Shown here: positions 11,615 to 64,000 of the stretch, in pieces
Layout of the letters: the number at the start of each line of letters is the position of its first letter
Position numbering within the stretch: position 1 is the stretch's first letter
Assembly (NCBI GenBank): GCA_009192285.1
Contig: CM018603.1
Span: forward strand, 7,277,408-7,341,407
Length of the DNA stretch: 64,000 bases
Direction of reading: 5' to 3'
Source of the DNA: Morchella semilibera
Lineage: Eukaryota > Ascomycota > Pezizomycetes > Pezizales > Morchellaceae
The notes under the pieces: generated by a model
Databases searched by the model: none
The model's input: only the letters and a program-made list of their open reading frames with translations
What the model was told of the DNA's origin: nothing
Position numbers and translations under genes: made by a program

Positions 11615-14025
11615 ATGACAACTATAAACCCAGTGTTTAGAGCGAGGGACATTCCTGTAGACGCCGACCTAAACAAGGTCATAACCACACTCGGGGAAGC
11701 ATATTCAGGCTTCTCTGTCCACCGCGATTTGTGTGCCATTGTCCCATCACCTTACACTACTACCCATAAGTCAGCCTTAATCCAGTTCTTCCGTCCCCCC
11801 CCAGCCCTAGCGAGACTAGGCACTCCTAACCAGAGGGATACTTTGGACCTCGACTTTGGGCGTCCGAATATGACTACGTTGACCCTTGATAAGGACTTCT
11901 ATGAGTTGACACAGCTATACGAGCCGAAACCACTACCGATTACCGCAGAGTACGTTCTTCCTTCCCCATTCCTCTTGGGGTAATTGAGATGATCTGAGAC
12001 TGCTCTCTTTAATGTATCTAGTATTGTAGCGGTTTCCGGGTTGAACGGGCACGCATACGGTTCATGGCGGAGCAAAGGGGGCGGGAAAATGTGGCTTCGG
12101 GATTTTCTATCCAAAGACCTTCCATCATGTAGAACAATGATATTTGGATGTAATACGAAACTGAGTGATAATTCCGACTATGAAATCTCCGATTATGCTG
12201 CGACGCTGTTGGGAGAGCTAGTGAAAGCCAGAAGGACGACGGAGGTGAGCAGACTGTGATCGCTACCGTGTGATTATGAGAGATCCTGGGCTAATTCCCC
12301 TTTGTCTTCCTCCGTATGCTCTAGGAGAAGGCAAGGCCCATAGTCTTCGTCGGACATAGCTTCGGCGGAGTTATTATCGCTCAGGTAGTTATATATTCTC
12401 ACACCTTTTTCTAGAACCCACCCAACATCGAGCAGTCCTAACATGACCCACCAGGCGATCGTTAAAGCACGCGCGGACACTCAGGGCATCCGCGAATGGA
12501 AGAATATTTTCGATAGTACACGTGGGATCGCGTTTTTTGGAACACCGCATCAAGGCCTTAATCTAGATGACCTGCAGGGCATGCTCAAGGAGGGGTCCCC
12601 AAGGAAACGTCTTCTCGATGCTCTAAAGCCCGGAAGTTCACAGTTGAAGGAGGAGTTGCCCAAATTCGTCGAATGTTGCGATAACATCAAGATTATTACA
12701 TTCTACGAGGTCAAACCAACCAATAGAGTGGTAACGGTGAGTGCGCTGATTCGTTCTGGCCAACTGGCTAGCTTCTCCGATATACAATATATTCCACGTT
12801 CATAGGCTAACATGTAGAACGCACTTCAAAAAAGAGTCCAGAGGGCGTTTCGACAGCCTCTGGCGATCCCAGGGTGAGAGTTGACCGAGACTCAGCCATT
12901 TTAAAGCTCCCAAGCAACACGGAGCAGGCCTACGTTACTGATGGAGATCACTCCGATATGGTCAAGTTCAAGCATAACCAGGAGAGGTCATACCTGACCT
13001 TTCTCGATTTTTTCAGGAAGCTTGATCTCAGTCCCAGGAACGCAACCCCTGCACCCGCAAATCCCGCACCAGGACCAGCACCCGCATACCCCACACAGCC
13101 CAGACCACCTTCCTCCACACCGAGTCAACCAGCACCAGGACCAGCAGCACCCACATACCCCACACAGCCCAGACCACCTCCCTCAACCCCGAGTCAACCG
13201 CCACCACCAGTGCGTAACAATGAGGAAGGGGGACGGGCCCTTATAAATGCCTCCAGTCAGGGGGATGTGGGAACGGTACAGATGCTCCTAGGAGCTGGAG
13301 TCAGCCCTGAATGGCTGTCAACAGATGGGAGTGGGATTAGGGCATTACACGCTGCAGCCATTGGGGGGCATGTGCCGGTGGTGCGGTTACTCTTGCAATA
13401 CGGAGCAGCCATCGACGCGGTGGAAGCCCAGGGCCGGAATGCCCTACACCTTGCTGCAATAAGCAACAGGCCTGATGTCGTTAGAGAGTTAATACAGGCG
13501 CATATCGCAAGGCGCATAAGCCTGGACATCCAGGATAGGTCTGGATATAGCGCGCTTCACTACGCTGCCGCGATGGGGCATCAAGCAGTTGTGGAGGCCC
13601 TTCTACAGAGTGGCGCGGCTGTTGGACTCAGGGCCCCCGACGGAAGTACTCCATTGGCTCTTGCAGCCGGTGCTGGACACAGGGGGGTGATATCCCTTCT
13701 TTTGGCACGGGGGGCAGAGGTAAACGCGGTGGACAACAGAGGAATGACACCATTATCTCTGGCCTCCAAGAATGGCCAAGCTGGGGCGGTGGAAGAACTG
13801 CTTGGAAGGGAGGCTCTCATCGACCCTGTCGATGCCTACAATAATTCCGCGATAGACTATGCCAATGCCGGGGGTCATAGGAGAGTTGTTGAGATCCTTT
13901 CAATCGTCAGACAGCAGCGCATCGCACGACTGGCACAGCGAGCACCAGGGCTTCAGGCACAAGCCGGCGCTTCGATTCTTGGGTTTGGTCTATCTTTTGG
14001 CGCCCAAAGCACATACTGGCCTTAG
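11615..14025 (+). CDS. SesB-like alpha/beta hydrolase with ankyrin repeats, about 696 aa
   Basis: Exons are 11615-11949, 12022-12244, 12325-12384, 12455-12736 and 12835-14025. The ATG sits in CCACCATGA. The N-terminal half is a lipase-type alpha/beta hydrolase: IVAVSGLNGHAYGSW at about 112-126, nucleophile elbow GHSFGG (Ser198), FFGTPHQG at about 233-240 and candidate catalytic His in TDGDH (about 339). A Pro-rich linker with two similar PRPPSSTPSQP-type units follows, then six or seven ankyrin repeats (for example ALHLAAISNRPDVV and TPLALAAGAGHRGV) to the C-terminus. In the known family (SesB, DUF676/SERAC1-like) this hydrolase is an N-terminal effector module of fungal NLR-like receptors. 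Here it joins ankyrins without a NACHT or NB-ARC ATPase. The last intron acceptor (12834) is weak and was chosen for frame and an upstream CTAAC. Confidence 0.85.
13242..13905 (+). repeat. Ankyrin-repeat coding region
   Basis: About six or seven 33-residue units with the xTPLxxAxxxGHxxVVxxLLxxGA pattern. Representative cores are ALHAAAIGGHVPVVRLLL, ALHYAAAMGHQAVVEALL and TPLALAAGAGHRGVISLL. One unit is stretched by an insertion (AHIARRISLDIQD). The repeats are diverged at DNA level, so they are not a recent amplification. Confidence 0.85.
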
Positions 14026-22378: not shown

Positions 22379-24368
22379 CTAGGGGGGGGTTGTGGGTAAA
22401 TCTGTGGCCCGGCTGCGGGCCTTTTCTTGCTCGGCCTTTTCTGCCGCGGCTTCTTTGATAATAGTTTCCACTGTTCTCCCAATCCTCTTTAGCACTGTGG
22501 TTGCGTCATTCGCATCCACCTTCGCGAACCTGCAAATGCTTAGGTGATCGCCATCAAGGGGGACAGTTCTTTCGTTTTGGAGACCCAACCGGGCAGATCC
22601 TTCGTCGACAATCTGATACCAATCTTAGTTACATGATATCTGTCGGGGGCATTTTTTTCGGGGACTGCAAGGGAGTATATATAACGTACTATTCTATCAC
22701 CTAAAGCCTTAGTCTCGAAGAATGTTGTAATATTTAACTTCTGAGCCCTTTCAACAAAGTTTGTAGCAAGATCCATGAGCGTGCCAGACCATGTCTTGAA
22801 GTCTTCCAAAGCCCTATCGTTTAATTGTAAACCGGCTGATAGTCTCCCAAGGAGGCGGGCCCACACTCCCAAGTCGCCTCCTGCGTGGGGAGTTCCTAGA
22901 AACATTATGGATTTGGTACTATCCACAATTCTAGGGTACTGATATGATTTGCTGAAGGCTAAGTTTAAGGACTTTTATATGAAGTATAAGCTCATGCATG
23001 CTCAGGCGGTCTGCTTCAATTCAGAATAGACGCTTACCGCTTTGATCACTAGTCCACCAAGTGAATGGCAAATGAACACGATTGGACGATAGGACTAGAC
23101 TCAAGGTTAGCACGCCATTATCCGAACCAATGTTTATGGCCACATGTTTAATACCCCGTCAGGCGACTTTCGGTCCGAGTCTGCAAGATGGTTCAGGAGT
23201 TGCTCTGAAAAGGTAGATAGTCTTCCACTATTCTCGTACGCACTTTGCGTGAATACGCCTGATTGATACCCAAAGGTCATAACACGAGACTTGACATTGC
23301 AGTGGCTCAGAAGGTACTGCGGGAGGAAGTCTCGAAGCCAGAGTTTGCCAGACCCCGTTTCTGTCCAAGCTGAGTACGCATCTTCGGCAAGTCCATGTAT
23401 CGCAATAATACTGAGGAAATAGATTATTAGCTTTAATTGCCCCCTGGCTAGATGAAACCGGGTCTTTAGGTTCGTATAACTTACTCCACTTGGGCATCCT
23501 GCCCACCATCCTCGCCTGGCGGGTGCAATTGGTGAAAGCCTATTGTATGATCCTTGATACGATACTAAGCGTTAGCTCATAGTGCGTGATATGTACACTC
23601 TTCTTGATTCAACTCATATGAGGGCAACCCTACCGGTACGTTTGTACTGGGGTGGCTCCTTGACGGTGTGGTCTCTGCGGCCGGTACTTGTTTTGGAACG
23701 GGATTCTGTTGTGGAGCGGGATTCTGTTGCGGTGCTCCAGTGCCGCCTGATGTTTGTTGGCCGGAGTCCCAAGTGTTTTCTGTGCTTGGTTTTGCTGGTT
23801 GTCTATTGCTTGGCATCTGTCTATAATGTTGTCCTGGGGCATTGTAAGCGTTACAGGGAGAGGGCGACTCTTGCACTCGTGGTTGACAATTGTTCGGCAT
23901 CTGTCCATAATATTGTCCCGGCGGGTTATTCCAAGCGTGAACGAGAGGGGCCGGCGACCCTTGCCCTGGTGGTTGACAATTGTTCGGCATCTGTCCATAA
24001 TATTGTGCCGGGGCATTATACGGGTTGACGAGGGGGGACGACCCTTGCCCTCGTGGTTGACAATTGTTCGGCATCTGTCCATAATATTGTCCCGGGGGAT
24101 TGTAGGTGTTATAGGGAGAGGGCGACCCTTGCACTCGTGGTTGACAATTGTTCGGCATCTGTCCATAATATTGTCCCGGCGGGTTATTCCAGGCGTGGAC
24201 GAGGGGGGCCGGCGACCCTTGCCCTGGTGGTTGACAATTGTTCGGCATCTGTCCATAATATTGTCCCGGGGTATTGTAAGGGTTACCGAGAGGAGGAGAC
24301 CTTTGATCTCGTGCTGAGCATGAGGGCGAGGGTGAGGGCCATGGTGATAGGCTCGGAGCTCCAAACAT
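22379..24368 (-). CDS. SesB-like alpha/beta hydrolase with tandem-repeat N-terminus, 540 aa
   Basis: Six exons on the minus strand: 24368-23597, 23539-23485, 23410-23155, 23094-23038, 22938-22690 and 22612-22379. All splice in frame (1623 nt). Residues 1-257 are a Gly/Pro/Gln/Asn-rich region with six units of about 28-30 aa carrying QYYGQMPNNCQP. The hydrolase follows: FHQLHPPGEDGG, then VDIIAIHGLAEDAYSAW, then the nucleophile elbow FICHSLGG (Ser372), FLGTPHAGGD, and LDGDHLSICRF with the candidate catalytic His. The Gly before HSxGG is Cys here, which is unusual but need not abolish activity. It ends in an acidic/Ala-Glu-rich helix and a PTTPP tail. The low-complexity N-terminus recalls a prion-like or scaffold region, which is inference only. 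Confidence 0.85.
23810..24290 (-). repeat. In-frame coding tandem repeat, 84/90 bp units
   Basis: The plus-strand word GGTTGACAATTGTTCGGC recurs at about 23881, 23971, 24055, 24138 and 24229. Spacings are 84 and 90 bp, both multiples of three. The two spacer types (encoding LVHAWNN or YNxYN tails) recur, suggesting a higher-order unit. Because units lack stops, two other frames also stay open. Those are shadows. Confidence 0.9.
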
Positions 24369-27731: not shown

Positions 27732-29933
27732 CTAGATAGTTACCTCACGAGCAAGTCCGCCTAGCGTAACGTTTGCTATCTGTACCGAGATTGGGAGGTT
27801 GATTTAGCCATTTCATGAAGCATTGCAAAAATTGGGAGTTCAGGATAGATACGGGCGGGAGAGTACCTTATCCAACATTTCCTTGCTGAAAGAACCTCCA
27901 TCGAAGGCAATGCCAAGGTTATCTATTGGAAAGATATTAGCAATGTACATGTTTGGGATACGTTTTAAACACCTGGCTCGCAATGAATATGTGGCCTTAT
28001 GACTTGAATCTTCTCCAACTCGGCAACCAATTTTGCTGCTTCTCCATTACCCCCAGCGTCACAAAACTGAAAGAAGACAGCTGATATGACACAGGAGATG
28101 TTAACGACTAGGAAACCACGAGCCAATCTGGGAACAATCTGAATGGGTATAACTAACATGACTCGCCACCGGGGAAGGACTTTAACTGAGATATCCAGTC
28201 AAGTAAGACAGCTGATAGTTTGCCTGTCACCTCTCCGAAAGCCTAGATCGTGGTATCTTTACGTCAGTACAATGTCCGGCAAATTCAAGCTATGATAGCA
28301 TGGGGATGCTACCTCTCCATTCACAACGACAAGAACAAGTAGTGGTCTCTTCATATCCTTGGTTACCAAAGGTTTAAGTATTTTGCTCTCTAACTGATTT
28401 CCGGTTCTCCTACGCCCGGACCAATCATGGATCCTTAACAATTTTTTCACCCCCTCCTCGTCGATATGATCTGCAGTTTCGTTCCCGTTGAAAAACCGAA
28501 TCGTCCGAATCTTACCCTGTTCTCCTTTACCACAGTGGGAATATATGCGGATAAGGGCCGGCAGGAAGCCCATAAGATTGTTAATCGCTACCCTCCCATT
28601 TGACGTCATCGACCTGGTATCGTCTGTGATCACCAAGATATATGTTAGACGGCACGCACCCAAGGGCTTTTGCGGTGTGGTGAACGGTAGTCTCATGCCC
28701 GCCTGTGTGGTGTGTCGGTGTGTCCGCTGTGCGGCAACAAAACAACAGTCTGGGAACGAGACTAGGTAAACGGTACTTACCAATTAATATCGCCACATCA
28801 TAGGTTGTCAATAGCGCAAACGTAGCTAAGCTTCCGGGATCCATGCCGATAGCGTTCTCCAGGGCCCCAACTTGTTCGGCGTTGGCTCGCAGGTGATTGC
28901 TCAGCTGTCGCTCATCGCCCCCACCGAATAGCCTCTGGAGGCCGTTTCTCGTGATATGATTTACAAGAGAATTGGCACATGGATTGAGAGGGGCATCAGT
29001 GGAACTGCTAGGTGTGGGATCGCTTCCCGCCGGAGGGCTGCCAGCGTCTGTCTCGTGGCCCTTACCCTGTGCAGTGGATGCCGCAGGCTTTCTTTCGTCA
29101 TCTTCTTCTTTGTTGTTCCCGTGCCTATCCACCCTGGAGTTTCTCGGTGCTGGAGGATACTTCTTTCGGCGTACAGGTATGTTAGCCACTGAAAAAGGGT
29201 GACGAGAACATGAAGAGTTTGCTATTCTATGTCGTCTTACTTTTACATACTCATCTAAACCACCGTAAATTTGTTCCACCGTCCGTTCAAACGCTTGACC
29301 GTCAGATAGTGCTTGGATGCTCTTGCCGTCTTTTCGTTTGTGCGTTCGCGAAGCCCCTTTCAAGATGTGCACCATCTCGAGATCACCATTTCGAATAGCT
29401 TTAAACAATGGTGTTTCGCCTTCTGCGTCGGCTGCTTCGAGATCTGCATTGTTTTCGATGAGATATCGTACTATGTCATGATGTCGATTCTGAACAGCAA
29501 TGTGCAGCGGACTCAGCTCGCAGGTATGGCATCGTACTGCGGTGCTACAATTCCTCTCCACCAGAGCTTCGACTATCTCAAGGTCCCCCGTTCTCGCCGA
29601 TAGCCATAGCGGGGTCCGTCCATGGTTGTCCGGGCAGTCGACATCTGCTGATTTGCTACAAAGAAGGGATTTAACGATCACAGGCTCATCTATAGAGATT
29701 GCGAGATGTAGCGGGGTTTGTCCATAACTGTTCTGAATATTTGGATTTGCGTGATACTTGAGAAGGGCATCAACAATCTTAGGTATCTTCTTAGAAATTG
29801 CCAAATGTAGAGGTGTTGTATTGTCATGTCGTTTGTCGTTGACACAGCCCTGATTACTTGCGATGTAATCGACAATAGTCGCAGGAGTCGACTCCTCATC
29901 GTAGACCTCAATCCTGTCGAAAATATTACTCAT
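27732..29933 (-). CDS. Ankyrin-repeat protein with C-terminal von Willebrand A (vWA) domain
   Basis: Exon 1 (29933-28781) starts with ATG and encodes five ankyrin repeats at about residues 38-200 (for example TPLHLAISKKIPKIVDALL) and a polar linker. Splicing 28780-28624 joins YDVAILI to DDTRSM, recreating a vWA strand 1 and metal-site loop. Exon 2 runs 28623-28313. Later exons carry FCDAGGNGEAAKLVAELE, then DNLGIAFDGG and IANVTLGGLARE before a TAG at 27732. Exon limits between 28.31 and 28.0 kb are unresolved. The metal site looks weakened: DDTRS instead of DxSxS, and VVVNGE where the second vWA gene here has ITDGG. A possible intron at 29240-29189 (GTAAGA...TTTTTCAG) would break frame, so I read through it. 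vWA modules usually bind protein partners through a metal ion. Confidence 0.75.
28688..28764. mobile_element. 77 bp MITE inside an intron, 9 bp target duplication
   Basis: The ends are TAGTCTCATGCCC and GGGAACGAGACTA, inverted with one or two mismatches. They are flanked by GGTGAACGG on the left (28679-28687) and GGTAAACGG on the right (28765-28773), a 9 bp target duplication with one change. It lies inside intron 1 of the ankyrin-vWA gene, where it inflates the intron to 157 bp. The same family occurs at 51001-51113 with a perfect 9 bp duplication. Confidence 0.75.
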
Positions 29934-44445: not shown

Positions 44446-45032
44446 GGGGGGGGGGTGGTCGCCTAGAGCGAGTGATAGTTCATGGCCTGGCGGTGGTGGC
44501 CTATGGCGTGACTAAGCGTCGAGTGACAACTCTTGACTTGGAGGCGAGTGATGGCTGAAGACCTGACTAAGCAGCGAGTGATATTTTATGATTACCTAGG
44601 ACGACAGAGGGGTTAGTGTTTATAGTTACAATTAGTGGTCATCTTTATTAAACTATTTATATAAGCTAAAAGGGATCCCAGTAGCCACGATCACTTAGAA
44701 TACAGGAAAGATCTAAATGACCTACGACTAGAAATTCATGTGAGTTAGTAGAGCCCCTCCCGATTAACAGCTTAATTCAAACCAGGGACGCAATCCCTAA
44801 TTCGAGTTTTACAAGAAGTGCAGCAAGGATAGAGATGCTTCCTGAAACCTACAAACACCCTGGCTTATGACGAGGTGTAACCTCCATACCGAAACTAACC
44901 AATGGGAACTAACCAATGGGAACAGAAAAGACAGCTTCAAGAAAAGACACGAACAAAGGGGATACAAGATGCCATAGCAAAAAGTATATGGCACCTGTGC
45001 ACCAAACTTAACTCAAGGTCCTTAATCTCCAA

Positions 45033-60124: not shown

Positions 60125-61378
60125 ATGGCAGCAGTCCGGAACCCTTTAGGTGAACTGCAACAAGCACCCCTTCGATATGCTAGTGCCGACACAGATGCGT
60201 ACGAGCCTATGTCAAGGATTTTCCATGAGGCAGAAGCATTACTACCCGATGGAACGGAGTCGCCCCTGGATATATTTGAGCTTTTTTGGACCAACGAGAC
60301 ACTAGAATTATTAGCCCAGAATACCAATGCCTATGCCAATATGCGAGGGGCATATGATATCTCAGTTTATTCTTTTAGAAGGAAGTGGAAGCCTGTTACC
60401 ACCAAAGAATTGCGGGTTTTCCTGGCGCTTTTGATGGCTATGGGTGTGTATCGATGCAAAACACCTACAGATTTGTGGAGGAAGCGATCTGGTGTTAGAC
60501 TGCATGTACCAGAATGGAAGGGACTGGTATCTAAATCAATGGGAAATAATAGATGCTTTCAGATCAAGCGATACTTGCATGTTGCACCGGTTGGAGAGGG
60601 TGAGTGGTGGGAGAAGCTTGAGCCGTTGAGTTCTAAGATGCGGGAAAACTGTATGAAGTACTATCTTCCTTTAGCATTGGTGACAGTCGATGAAATGATG
60701 ATAAGATTTGGAGGACGGAGCAAACATACAGTTCGAATGCCCAATAAACCAATCACCAAAAGATATAAAGTTTTTGCTATCTGTGATCATGGATACACCC
60801 TCAACTGGCGATTTCATTCCAGAGTCAATGGTATAGCAGAGCTGTCCCAAACCTACCGGAATTCGATTGGTATCTCTGCACCAACTACTGCTGTTGTCTA
60901 TCAGCTTGCTGAAGCTTCTCTCCCTTACCGTCAATACAATTTTGTTATTTATATGGACAATCTTTTCAGTACAGTACAACTATTTATGAAACTTGGAAGA
61001 CTGGGGATAGGTGCATGCGGAACAGCTCGAGTACAAGCAGGTCGATTTCCCAAAGAGTACGATAACACTGAGAAAAATATTCCCTGGAATACTGTTTCTG
61101 GAGGTGTGGTTACCGGTAGTGAAGGGTTAGTACTGGCAATGCAGTGGCAAGATAACAATCATGTACACGTCCTATCCACTGTTCATGATTCGAATGAAAA
61201 GGTTACTCGTCTACGGAAACGTCCATGCCTGACAAGCATAAGTGGTCAATTGCTAAGGACCGCATTTGGAAATAATCATAAAATGCATATTCCAATTCCA
61301 GCACTTATCGATGATTACAACTACCATAAAGGAAGAGTTGATATTGCTGATCAACTACGCAGCTACTTCTTTAGTTAG
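60125..61378 (+). CDS. piggyBac-type transposase (DDE_Tnp_1_7), C-terminally truncated
   Basis: The 417 aa frame from ATG matches the piggyBac family: SPLDIFELFWTNETLELLA near residue 46, ELRVFLALLMAMGVYR at about 95, catalytic Asp189 in VTVDEMMIRFGG, Asp278 in YMDNLFST, and Asp406/409 in KGRVDIADQLRSY. Family members continue well beyond that last motif (membrane-like Trp-rich helices and often a Cys-rich end). Here the frame runs into TTAGTTAGGG repeats at 61371 and stops five bases later. The protein thus lacks its C-terminus and is probably dead or altered. No TTAA-flanked terminal repeat was located. N-terminal sequence before the DDE domain is short. Confidence 0.9.
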   Translation: MAAVRNPLGELQQAPLRYASADTDAYEPMSRIFHEAEALLPDGTESPLDIFELFWTNETLELLAQNTNAYANMRGAYDISVYSFRRKWKPVTTKELRVFLALLMAMGVYRCKTPTDLWRKRSGVRLHVPEWKGLVSKSMGNNRCFQIKRYLHVAPVGEGEWWEKLEPLSSKMRENCMKYYLPLALVTVDEMMIRFGGRSKHTVRMPNKPITKRYKVFAICDHGYTLNWRFHSRVNGIAELSQTYRNSIGISAPTTAVVYQLAEASLPYRQYNFVIYMDNLFSTVQLFMKLGRLGIGACGTARVQAGRFPKEYDNTEKNIPWNTVSGGVVTGSEGLVLAMQWQDNNHVHVLSTVHDSNEKVTRLRKRPCLTSISGQLLRTAFGNNHKMHIPIPALIDDYNYHKGRVDIADQLRSYFFS

Positions 61379-61394
61379 GGTTAGTTAGGGTTAG
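61371..61394 (+). repeat. Interstitial telomere-like seam
   Basis: Two full TTAGTTAGGG units plus TTAG, in the same orientation as the terminal array, fused directly to the broken transposase on the left and to an element ending TGATCAAG on the right. Confidence 0.9.
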
Positions 61395-61993
61395 TGATCA
61401 AGTTATATTGATTTATGGGTACAATAGAAACCACAGCTAGGGAAAGCCTAGGCACATGACTACAACTATAACCGCAGGTACAAAAATGAAACCCCACAAG
61501 CCACTTAGGAGAGCTCAACCCAAATTCGGAAGCACAACCCCCAAAGCCGAGTCTTACAACACCCAAGAAGAAAACAGGAAAACACCAAGCACGGGTCCTA
61601 TGCATGCCATCACCCTTATAGCAGCCATCCATGCGAGGGAGGAAGAGCCCCTGCCCGAACCAACAGCTCAACCCAAGTCAGAGGCACAACCCCCTAAGTC
61701 GAGTCTAACAAATCAATCCAGCAAAGACTAAAACCCAACAGCCTAATCCATACCGAGGCACAACCCCGAGACCAGGACTAACAACAGGTACATCCTCCAA
61801 AGAAAAAAGAAACAGGGAGAACCAAGCAACCTCACGGAGGAGGAAACTGAGAAACCCGAATCTCTAGCGGCCCCAGACCTCCACTCCACCCCACCGTTCC
61901 AGTCTTAAGGCAGGAACAGTCGATGGGAAAATAAATAAGAAACAACACATAGGAAAAATAATAAAATGAGTGATAGATATAAAATAATAGAAA
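61395..61993 (-). mobile_element. Telomere-embedded element, 5'-truncated copy, 599 bp
   Basis: It shares its centromere-side end (plus strand TGATCAAG, then CCACAGCTAGGGAAAGCC) and about 550 bp with the unit starting at 62009. It ends abruptly after GATATAAAATAATAGAAA against the next telomere seam, while the other copy continues for another 1.2 kb. Common 3' end plus variable 5' end, with minus-strand polarity, is the signature of a non-LTR retroelement. The plus-strand frame inside (61456-61731) is repeat-derived and not a gene. Confidence 0.7.
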
Positions 61994-62008
61994 GTTAGTT
62001 AGGGTTAG
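61994..62008 (+). repeat. Telomere-like seam between two elements
   Basis: GTTAGTTAGGGTTAG separates the two element copies, the same 10-nt unit as the terminal array. Confidence 0.85.
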
Positions 62009-62646
62009 TGATCAAGCTGTATTTGTTTTAGGGTACAAATAGCAAACCACAGCTAGGGAAAGCCTAGGCACATGACTACAACTATAACCGCAGGTACAAA
62101 AATGAAACCCCATCCACCCCTAGGAGAGCTCAACCCAAAATTCGAAGGCACAACCCTCAAAGCCGAGTCTTACAACACCCAAGAAAGAAGACAAGAACAA
62201 CACCAAGCACGGGTCCTATGCATGCCATCACCCTTATAACAGCAATCCATGCGAGGGAGGAAGAGCCCCTACCCGAACCAACAGCTCAACCCAAGTCAGA
62301 GGCACAACCCCCTAAGTCGAGTCTAACAAATCAGTCCAGCAAAGACCAAAACCCAAAACAGCCCAATCCATACCGAGGCACAACCCCGAGACCAGGACTA
62401 ACAACAGGTACAACCTCCAAAGAAAAAGAAGCAGAGCAAACTCCAACTTCTAGCGGCCCCAGACCTCCACTCCACCCCACCATTCCCGTCTCAAAGCAGG
62501 AACGGTTGATGGGAAAATGATTAAGAGACATAGGAAAATTAACAAATGAGTGACAGATATAAAACAGTGGAAACACAAATAAATCAATAACGAAAGAGTA
62601 TTCCCGTATCCTCCGAACCCAAGTAAACATATCGTATCTATCAATT

Positions 62647-63778
62647 TCAACCACCAAACTCATTCATCAATCGTCGTACCTCGTCCTCTTGGAATGCTGT
62701 TGCAAGGCGTTTGTTCCAATCGGTTAATATCCTGTATGCTCTATCATGCGCCTTGATATTAAGGAGGTAATCAATGACTGTATACTTGGTATCCGGTGGG
62801 TGGAAAAGCCTATCAAACTCCATCATCTCCTTCTCCTCATCATTCAACACCAAGTCCAGATCCATACATCGGACATGACCCCTATCAAACCTCTCACCGC
62901 ACAGACATTTCCTGCCCCAACAGTAGATTCCTCGCCTCCAATCCCAGAGCATTCTCTGCATGGTCGGATCAGATATACCTGTAACAGTAGAAAAAGGGTG
63001 GAGATGAGAAGGCAATATCAGCCATCAATCCATTGAAGGGGGAGGAGGAGCGAAAACCTAAACATGAATATTCGACATAGAAATCCATGCGGTCCACCAA
63101 GACATTAATGTCTAGGTGGACCATCAACTCAAACAAGGCAAAAGGGGGAAGGAGGGTTGGAGGGGGAGGTGGAGGGGAGGGGGGGGGGGAAAGCCTAAAC
63201 ATAGATATTCGACATAGAAATCCATGCGGTCCACCAAGACATTAATGTCTAGGTGGACCATCAACTCAAACAAGGCAAAGGGGGAGGAGGGTTGGAGGGG
63301 AAGCGGAGATGGTGGGGGGGGGGTGGGGGGGAATCATAGATGGGTGGGGGTGGGGGGTGGGGGGTGTGGGGTTAGACCAACCAAGAACGGCAACCGCATC
63401 CAGTCCAGTCAACCTGGCCTCCGGCTCAACAATGGCACTCAAGGTTATAGTCTTCATATCCCTCTCACATACGGTCACAGTCTTCCTCCAAGCCAAAAAG
63501 GAAATCATCTTGTCCTTCAATTCCTTGCCATCAAATAGGTCTCGCTGCTCCAGGAAGGAGGAATACATCCGGTCCTCCAGTAGGTGACCAGCAAGGAGGC
63601 CATCGCATTCCCTGCATCGTCGTTTTTCCCCCCCCCCTACCCGGCGTGTCGACGACCTCGAAAGGGTGGACCTTCCATGACCCCTAGCAAGTCCAGAGTA
63701 GGAAGAGGAGGAGGAGGAGGAGGAGGAGGAGGAACAAATACCATCCAGGATCAGTCTCATCGGGTTGTCACTGTACAT
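62647..63778 (-). CDS. Protein of the telomere-embedded element (two exons inferred)
   Basis: Exon 1 begins with ATG at 63778. It contains a poly-Ser run from a (TCC)n microsatellite, then GGEKRRCRECDGLLAGHLL, RDLFDGKELKDKMISFLAW and IVEPEARLTGLDAVAVLG. An intron covering the tandem repeats ends at a CTACTGTTACAG acceptor near 62982. Exon 2 reads ISDPTMQRMLWDWRRGIY, CWGRKCLCGERFDRGHVRC and TVIDYLLNIKAHDRAYRIL, and ends RRLMNEFGG at 62647. The Cys/His pattern (CWxxxxCxCG, then GHxxC) resembles zinc-knuckle ends of some LINE-type proteins, but no family can be assigned. The donor site is not fixed. Confidence 0.5.
63053..63290. repeat. Direct repeat, two copies of about 100 bp
   Basis: ATATTCGACATAGAAATCC through CATCAACTCAAACAAGGC occurs at about 63066-63140 and again at about 63205-63278, spaced by about 138 bp and nearly identical. 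Each copy is followed by a GGAGG-rich tract. Confidence 0.85.
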
Positions 63779-63800
63779 GGTTTCCAGGTGGTGTTGAAAT

Positions 63801-64000
63801 AGTTAGGGTTAGTTAGGGGTTAGTTAGGGTTAGTTAAGGTTAGTTAGGGTTAGTTAGTTAGGGTTAGTTGGTTAGTTAGGGTTAGTTAGGGTTAGTTAGG
63901 GTTAGTTAGGGTTAGTTTAGGGTTAGTTAGGTTATAGGGTTTATGTTAGGGTTAGTTAGGGTTAGTTAGGGTTAGTTAGGGTTAGTTAGGGTTAGTTAGG
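63801..64000 (+). repeat. Terminal telomere-like array, 10-nt unit TTAGTTAGGG
   Basis: About 18 units of TTAGTTAGGG, with some variants in the first 140 bp (GTTAGTTGG, TTAGTTTAGGG, GGTTATAGGGTTTATG) and a homogeneous final block running to the window edge. The G-rich strand points rightwards 5'-3', as expected for a right chromosome end. The unit is not the TTAGGG common in filamentous fungi. It differs by one base from the TTAGTCAGGG unit known from Yarrowia lipolytica. Confidence 0.9.

Follow-up and report, generated by a model that had tools for sequence, protein, structure and literature searches.

The terminal 64 kb of contig C1 (7,341,407 bp) of the Morchella semilibera genome, here called the window, contains two related DNA units set in telomere repeats, which are probably 5'-truncated copies of a non-LTR (lacking long terminal repeats, LTRs) retrotransposon family of the long interspersed nuclear element (LINE) type, specialised for chromosome ends. 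Comparison of copies across the assembly (56.8 Mb, 23 contigs) showed what carries this reading: a shared 3' end, a fixed phase to the telomere repeat, a common orientation, 5' truncations capped by telomere, and longer copies predicted to encode a reverse transcriptase (RT).

Toward the chromosome end, the window contains in order a piggyBac-type transposase gene, a 21 nt telomeric seam, unit 1, a 15 nt seam, unit 2 and about 200 bp of (TTAGTTAGGG)n. The features are as follows (window coordinates; in sequences, a slash marks a junction):

60125 to 61373, plus strand: piggyBac-type transposase gene, interrupted at the telomere seam (Pfam DDE_Tnp_1_7, 4.8e-52); a 97% identical copy on contig C4 reads on
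61374 to 61394, plus strand: telomeric seam of 21 nt (24 nt with the shared TTA) that joins unit 1 to the chromosome (sequence)
61395 to 61993, minus strand: unit 1, 5'-truncated copy of subfamily A', 3' untranslated region (UTR) only, with its 3' end at 61395 (sequence, alignment)
61994 to 62008, plus strand: telomeric seam between the units, 15 nt (sequence)
62009 to 63800, minus strand: unit 2, 5'-truncated copy of subfamily A; longer copies elsewhere extend past 63800 into the RT (DNA search, alignment)
62009 to 62646, minus strand: 3' UTR of unit 2, terminating ...CTTGATCA then CTAACCCTAAC (aligned with other subfamilies)
62647 to 62978, minus strand: final coding exon, with a CLCGERFDRGHVRC zinc-knuckle-like motif (shares 88 of its 112 aligned residues with subfamily B; ratio of nonsynonymous to synonymous substitution rates, dN/dS, 0.08)
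62979 to 63381, minus strand: predicted intron 3, acceptor TTACAG/GTATATC, donor position common with subfamily B (sequence comparison by eye)
63052 to 63323, unstranded: 137-bp tandem repeat, two copies, in predicted intron 3, each with a palindrome around ATTAAT (sequence, tandem repeat search)
63382 to 63800, minus strand: C-terminal part of the RT exon, without the RT core (comparison with longer copies)
63801 to 64000, plus strand: telomere tract of (TTAGTTAGGG)n up to the contig end, which caps unit 2 at its 5' truncation (sequence, tandem repeat search)

A previous sequence-only reading had described two minus-strand units with telomere seams between and around them, sharing the centromere-side terminus and differing in length on the telomere side. 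Coordinates and description both hold when set against the sequence and its tandem repeats: the centromere-side end is GTTAGGGTTAG/TGATCAAG in both units, and the telomere-side ends differ. Unit 1 is 85.7% identical to the 3' part of unit 2 (621 alignment columns). That reading had counted a single 5'-truncated copy, which has to be amended, as both units are truncated relative to longer copies.

The 18-mer at the junction (GTTAGGGTTAGTGATCAA) was found at 41 exact places in the 56.8 Mb and at 77 with up to two mismatches, against three at up to two mismatches for a reversed control, which excludes a chance origin. A set of 49 element 3' ends was compiled from the 41 exact 18-mers and eight inexact ones backed by searches with the 320-bp 3' end or with subfamily B; outside this set are other inexact 18-mers and partial subfamily B matches without a 3' end (e.g. 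two on C16). Four of the 49 are based on the 18-mer alone (C2:4100097, C19:4063372, C23:181270 and C23:208969); no adjoining copy was detected at these junctions, which are possibly very short or old relics.

The sequence-only reading had proposed searching the 3' end against the chromosome ends, allowing that copies lying mainly away from telomeres would speak against it. Twenty-three of the 49 3' ends lay within 5 kb of one of the 46 contig ends, where 0.2 would be expected under even placement, and 32 lay within 70 kb. All 23 terminal copies have the same orientation, with the 3' end facing the centromere, as do six of the nine subterminal copies (5-70 kb from an end). The remaining 3' ends comprise nine at scaffold joins or in a converging pair on C22, and eight interior ones. 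Near the scaffold-join copies there is either telomere with a single N after it (C19, C22) or a run of N (C19:716.9k). DNA searches with the units gave 15 other matches longer than 1 kb, 12 of them 95-99% identical to the window, which suggests that the family was recently active.

Two observations concern the assembly itself. A pair of converging element stacks lies shortly past a single-N join at C22:1664254-1676360, which would be an end-to-end fusion or else a fold-back of the assembly. The contig pairs C9/C10, C12/C13 and C21/C22 are near-equal in length or position-matched and appear to be allelic; part of the assembly may therefore be diploid or dikaryotic.

The 3' junctions were read from a table of 41 rows, reduced to 34 by removing six double-query duplicates and a spurious weak match at window position 44637. 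All 34 share one phase (GTTAGGGTTAG/TGATCAAG), 32 exactly and two with one seam substitution. Of the other 15 in the set, one is a 13-nt remnant in the same phase and 14 are known from the 18-mer or BLAST only, the 18-mer search finding this phase only. Subfamilies whose adjacent 3' UTRs differ have the seam and the element's final 8 nt (TGATCAAG) in common. Poly(A) was not present at the element 3' end, which reads ...CTTGATCA/CTAACCC.

Seam lengths were compared in 30 junctions, after removal of four allele or palindrome copies and with substitutions allowed. The seams measured 11-41 nt (median 15), with 20 of the 30 at 16 nt or less and none below 11 nt. Terminal telomere tracts of 72-252 nt were detected by script at 26 of the 46 contig ends, with a 27th, on C18, visible by reading; the longest seam (41 nt) is thus shorter than the shortest terminal tract (72 nt). 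At two places the DNA broken by a seam is known together with its continuation. The transposase gene reads CTTCTTTA/GTTAGGG in the window and CTTCTTTA/CCCAATT in its 97% identical C4 copy, while a junction on C20 reads TATGGA/GTTAGGGTTAG/TGATCA against TATGGA/AGACCC in LTR-like repeats on C1, exactly 11 nt having been added. In both cases the seam begins after a shared A. The interrupted LTR-like repeat on C20 (L037:863-1130) is about 267 bp long and occurs elsewhere in pairs about 5.3 kb apart.

At the other side of the element, 26 5' junctions were examined, with copies cut by contig ends or N mostly excluded. Eighteen pass directly into telomere repeats, and 16 of these are non-redundant, at different truncation points. 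The other eight comprise one with telomere within about 30 nt, six that meet other DNA and one that runs off a contig end. The family therefore has the constant 3' end and variable 5' truncation of a non-LTR retrotransposon. The 13-nt remnant (TGATCAAGCTGTA) is a piece of the element 3' end lying between two telomere tracts at the end of C7 (L035:1841-1853). Inspection by eye also revealed two sequences apparently common to chromosome ends beyond the element 5' end, one on C5 and C21 (CCCCTACTACGCCCCG; L013:77-711 and L039:2963 onwards) and another on C7 and C14 (TATA..TTTCTGGTG; L015, L035 and L036).

The sequence-only reading had found no RT and a Cys-rich protein that matched nothing recognisable to it, and had suggested looking for a longer copy with RT sharing the same 3' end. 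Such copies were found. In seven other copies the match stops exactly at window position 63800, where telomere begins in the window, and all seven share sequence beyond it, which encodes an RT on the element sense strand. The Cys-rich protein thus corresponds to the C-terminal end of the RT open reading frame (ORF), and both window units are truncated before the RT core; the window's own element pieces gave nothing above the Pfam cut-off. The first RT exon of a C19 copy (subfamily A) matched RVT_1 at 9.6e-16, and the YADD exon of a C17 copy at 1e-05, under the Pfam cut-off. A relative on C23 (subfamily B), 64% identical over query residues 1-367, matched RVT_1 at 1.6e-16; its ORF1 has 551 residues, and its ORF2 extends further at the N terminus. 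LINE-1 (L1) and R2 proteins were among the strongest PDB matches to the RT of both subfamilies, and the motifs FLDLEAAYD, GVPQGSPLSP and FYADD are what we take to be the LINE/R2 type. The predicted enzyme is thus of the LINE type that marks a non-LTR retrotransposon. The RT exons are broken by an acidic insert.

A genome search with the final exon of unit 2 (62647-62978) gave 21 matches. Between subfamilies A and B, differences in the three coding pieces are mostly at third positions, with dN/dS of 0.10, 0.14 and 0.08 (340/409, 294/354 and 110/112 codons kept after dropping poorly aligned ones), ratios that are rough since dS is near saturation (1.9-2.4). The coding pieces look like selected genes rather than accidental ORFs. 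An AlphaFold model of the final exon made without an alignment reached a predicted confidence (pLDDT) of 46 and was not used.

By eye, two short predicted introns, with GTATGT or GTGAGT as donor and CAG as acceptor, break the RT frame of subfamily A. The second has its match in subfamily B at a corresponding place, and so has the intron preceding the final exon, there with a matching reading phase as well; a clear counterpart of the first was not seen in B. The donor of predicted intron 3 is weak in A (GTTGGT) and canonical in B (GTATGT). This predicted intron is retained in the DNA copies whose long alignments run through 62979-63381. Each copy of its 137-bp repeat contains a near-perfect palindrome around GGTCCACC..GACATTAATGTC, and similar repeats occur in other element copies. 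A fold of the RNA 3' end was not supported: RNAalifold gave three pairs and no compensatory change, single-strand folds gave z of -1.72 (11/200 shuffles as good), 0.82, -0.49 and -0.65, and Rfam matched nothing in the window or at six contig starts.

A mechanism for the attachment can be proposed from these junctions. A chromosome end that is broken, nearly bare or reduced to one to three telomere repeats would present a 3'-OH on the TTAGTTAGGG strand, and the element RNA, with a 3' end ...CUUGAUCA followed by telomere-complementary CUAACCCUAAC, would pair with it. The element RT would then copy the RNA, and the first-strand complementary DNA (cDNA) would lengthen the chromosome directly, with the element 3' end toward the centromere. 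Synthesis would halt early, or the end would later erode, before host telomerase caps the new end, and repeated cycles would yield stacks. The seam nucleotides could be made by telomerase beforehand or copied from the RNA tail.

Several observations point in this direction. With the element attached by its 3' end to the TTAGTTAGGG strand, the first cDNA strand should have grown outward from a chromosomal 3'-OH. The short seams, their floor of 11 nt and the seams set on non-telomeric DNA suggest priming on short, eroded or just-broken ends, and the fixed phase could result from an RNA 3' end carrying CUAACCCUAAC that pairs with any telomeric 3' end. A host TERT domain was found by profile search of the genome (PF12009, 4.2e-48), so telomerase could recap the cDNA. 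Since introns persist in the copies, the copied RNA should be unspliced (or antisense), and distinct from the spliced messenger RNA that would make the protein. A bolder reading, which we put forward tentatively, is that the LINE-type RT forms a second, telomerase-like end-healing system, in which an unspliced RNA with the built-in tail CUAACCCUAAC would be copied without a nick onto ends, including those lacking telomere, in convergence with endonuclease-deficient Penelope-like elements.

Some findings weigh against a family specialised for chromosome ends, or against this way of attachment. Eight of the 49 copies are interior and nine lie at 5-70 kb from ends, three of these nine in the opposite orientation; we read the interior and subterminal copies as relics, by analogy with those of MoTeR elements, which is unproven. 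The six 5' junctions that meet other DNA are joined by an interior C7 copy that does likewise. The C23 copy of subfamily B lies about 200 kb inside, with no telomere tract of at least 14 nt in the surrounding 8 kb; a further 2.8 kb upstream also showed none. Its endonuclease-like N-terminal domain makes nicking possible. An untruncated 5' end was not found among the copies examined. The seam may be a telomerase product rather than an RNA copy, and the tract lengths at contig ends may have been cut by assembly.

The alternative that survives best concerns the 5' ends: longer copies might have been eroded from the end and healed by telomere addition, rather than being left incomplete by aborted reverse transcription. 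We give this somewhat less than even chances. For MoTeR, one report describes 17 of 23 truncations with in-frame seed sequences of 1-7 nt (PMC7367193), and the telomere-capped truncation points of the present family look alike. The 13-nt remnant is compatible with erosion, although near-complete erosion would have had to halt just short of the end. This alternative alters only the final step and leaves the attachment unaffected.

It is rather unlikely that the copies arose by target-primed insertion at an endonuclease nick within existing telomere arrays, as in silkworm TRAS/SART and in MoTeR/FoTeR, with the fixed phase reflecting the nick site. The fixed 3' phase would agree with it, and so would the N terminus of the C23 ORF2, with its order N, ET, GGG, YYPP, GDIN and DH, presumably that of apurinic/apyrimidinic endonucleases (APE). 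This order was matched by 0 of 200000 shuffles and by one of 58 ORFs (itself), with a pattern that was written after seeing the sequence and whose first N..G step is weak. However, Pfam gave no match for this domain at E values up to 10, its sole PDB match is weak and unrelated (E 2.2), and it is absent from the 65 PF14529 matches in the genome. Random nicks in tracts of 72-252 nt should also often leave long seams, whereas the longest is 41 nt. Of the earlier proposal of target-primed non-LTR insertion into telomere repeats, the retroelement and its telomere targeting stand, while the seam lengths fit attachment to short or new ends better than insertion in the middle of a long array.

It is very improbable that the units moved from one chromosome end to another without transposing, through break-induced replication or unequal exchange. 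Duplicated ends do exist (the ends of C12 and C13, the starts of C21 and C22, and the C22 palindrome), but outside these the flanks at the 3' seams and the truncation points vary by copy, and an interior copy on C20 combines 99.8% identity across 470 bp with other flanking DNA. The unequal-crossover duplicates that the sequence-only reading had raised against itself are therefore limited to a few allelic or palindromic pairs. Still more remote is a Penelope-like element lacking an endonuclease, as has been reported from fungi: the same terminal attachment with telomere repeats on truncated 5' ends is described in PMC3846280, and introns are known in such elements (from a title cited there), but the RT motifs and best PDB matches here appear to be of the LINE/R2 type, in a comparison that included no Penelope reference. 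An assembly artefact at repeats can practically be dismissed, since the final 4.1 kb of C1 is free of N and the 23 terminal copies are spread across many contigs with mostly distinct flanks, even if C19 and C22 have single-N joins next to telomeres and C22 has a converging pair.

Elsewhere in the window, ORFs with ankyrin repeats were observed near the chromosome end at 12874-14025 (plus strand) and 28581-29933 (minus strand), and an 84/174-bp tandem repeat at 23796-24313.

By its behaviour the family is a telomere-specific LINE. Its closest counterparts are MoTeR of Magnaporthe and FoTeR of Fusarium, described as residing at fungal telomeres, with 3' ends carrying a few telomere repeats, telomere-capped 5' truncations, stacks, relics away from ends and tandem repeats (PMC12857005, PMC8381367 and PMC7367193); these features have counterparts in M. 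semilibera, in the case of the relics presumed ones. A truncated MoTeR1 has been placed one repeat from a telomere-ribosomal DNA junction (PMC7367193), and the TAACCC reading in the FoTeR Table 3 would place the MoTeR/FoTeR 3' end toward the centromere as well. The likeness to MoTeR drawn by the sequence-only reading is borne out for the behaviour of a fungal telomere retroelement and not for its endonuclease: the restriction-like endonuclease motif (CCHC + RHD/N + R/K-P/A-D, after PMC12857005) was not found in six coding pieces of A and B, where CCHC occurs in the final exon of both, RHD/N in none, and one RPD upstream of the RT in B. The family is apparently outside the restriction-like-endonuclease group, as judged from these predicted proteins. 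Unlike MoTeR/FoTeR, it has predicted introns kept in copies, an acidic insert in the RT exons and a 10-nt telomere repeat.

For Penelope-like elements without an endonuclease, priming on exposed chromosome ends has been reported, as has the addition of telomere to 5' ends left truncated (PMC3846280). Athena-type members resemble the present family in end attachment, in telomere on the truncated 5' end, and in introns. They differ in the RT, which in M. semilibera reads as LINE type by its L1/R2 matches in PDB and by its motifs. Silkworm SART1/TRAS are also non-LTR elements that lie in telomere repeats and have a precise 3' junction, whereas the M. semilibera element is without 3' poly(A); a motif order presumably that of an APE endonuclease such as theirs occurs in the C23 copy, without Pfam, PDB or PF14529 support. 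HeT-A, TART and TAHRE of Drosophila are LINE-type elements added at chromosome ends with the 3' end to the centromere; unlike that system, M. semilibera keeps a TERT domain and simple telomere repeats. In titles and abstract openings among the matches listed, such a fungal family was not described, which is weak evidence of absence as most subscription papers lie outside the search, and none appeared to concern a TTAGTTAGGG telomere.

If this reading is correct, the fungi gain a telomere-specific LINE whose copies keep predicted introns and which apparently does not belong to the restriction-like-endonuclease group. Dozens of junctions in a single genome would then record the healing of broken ends, and the 11-nt floor and fixed phase amount to a precise prediction on the 3' end of the element RNA.
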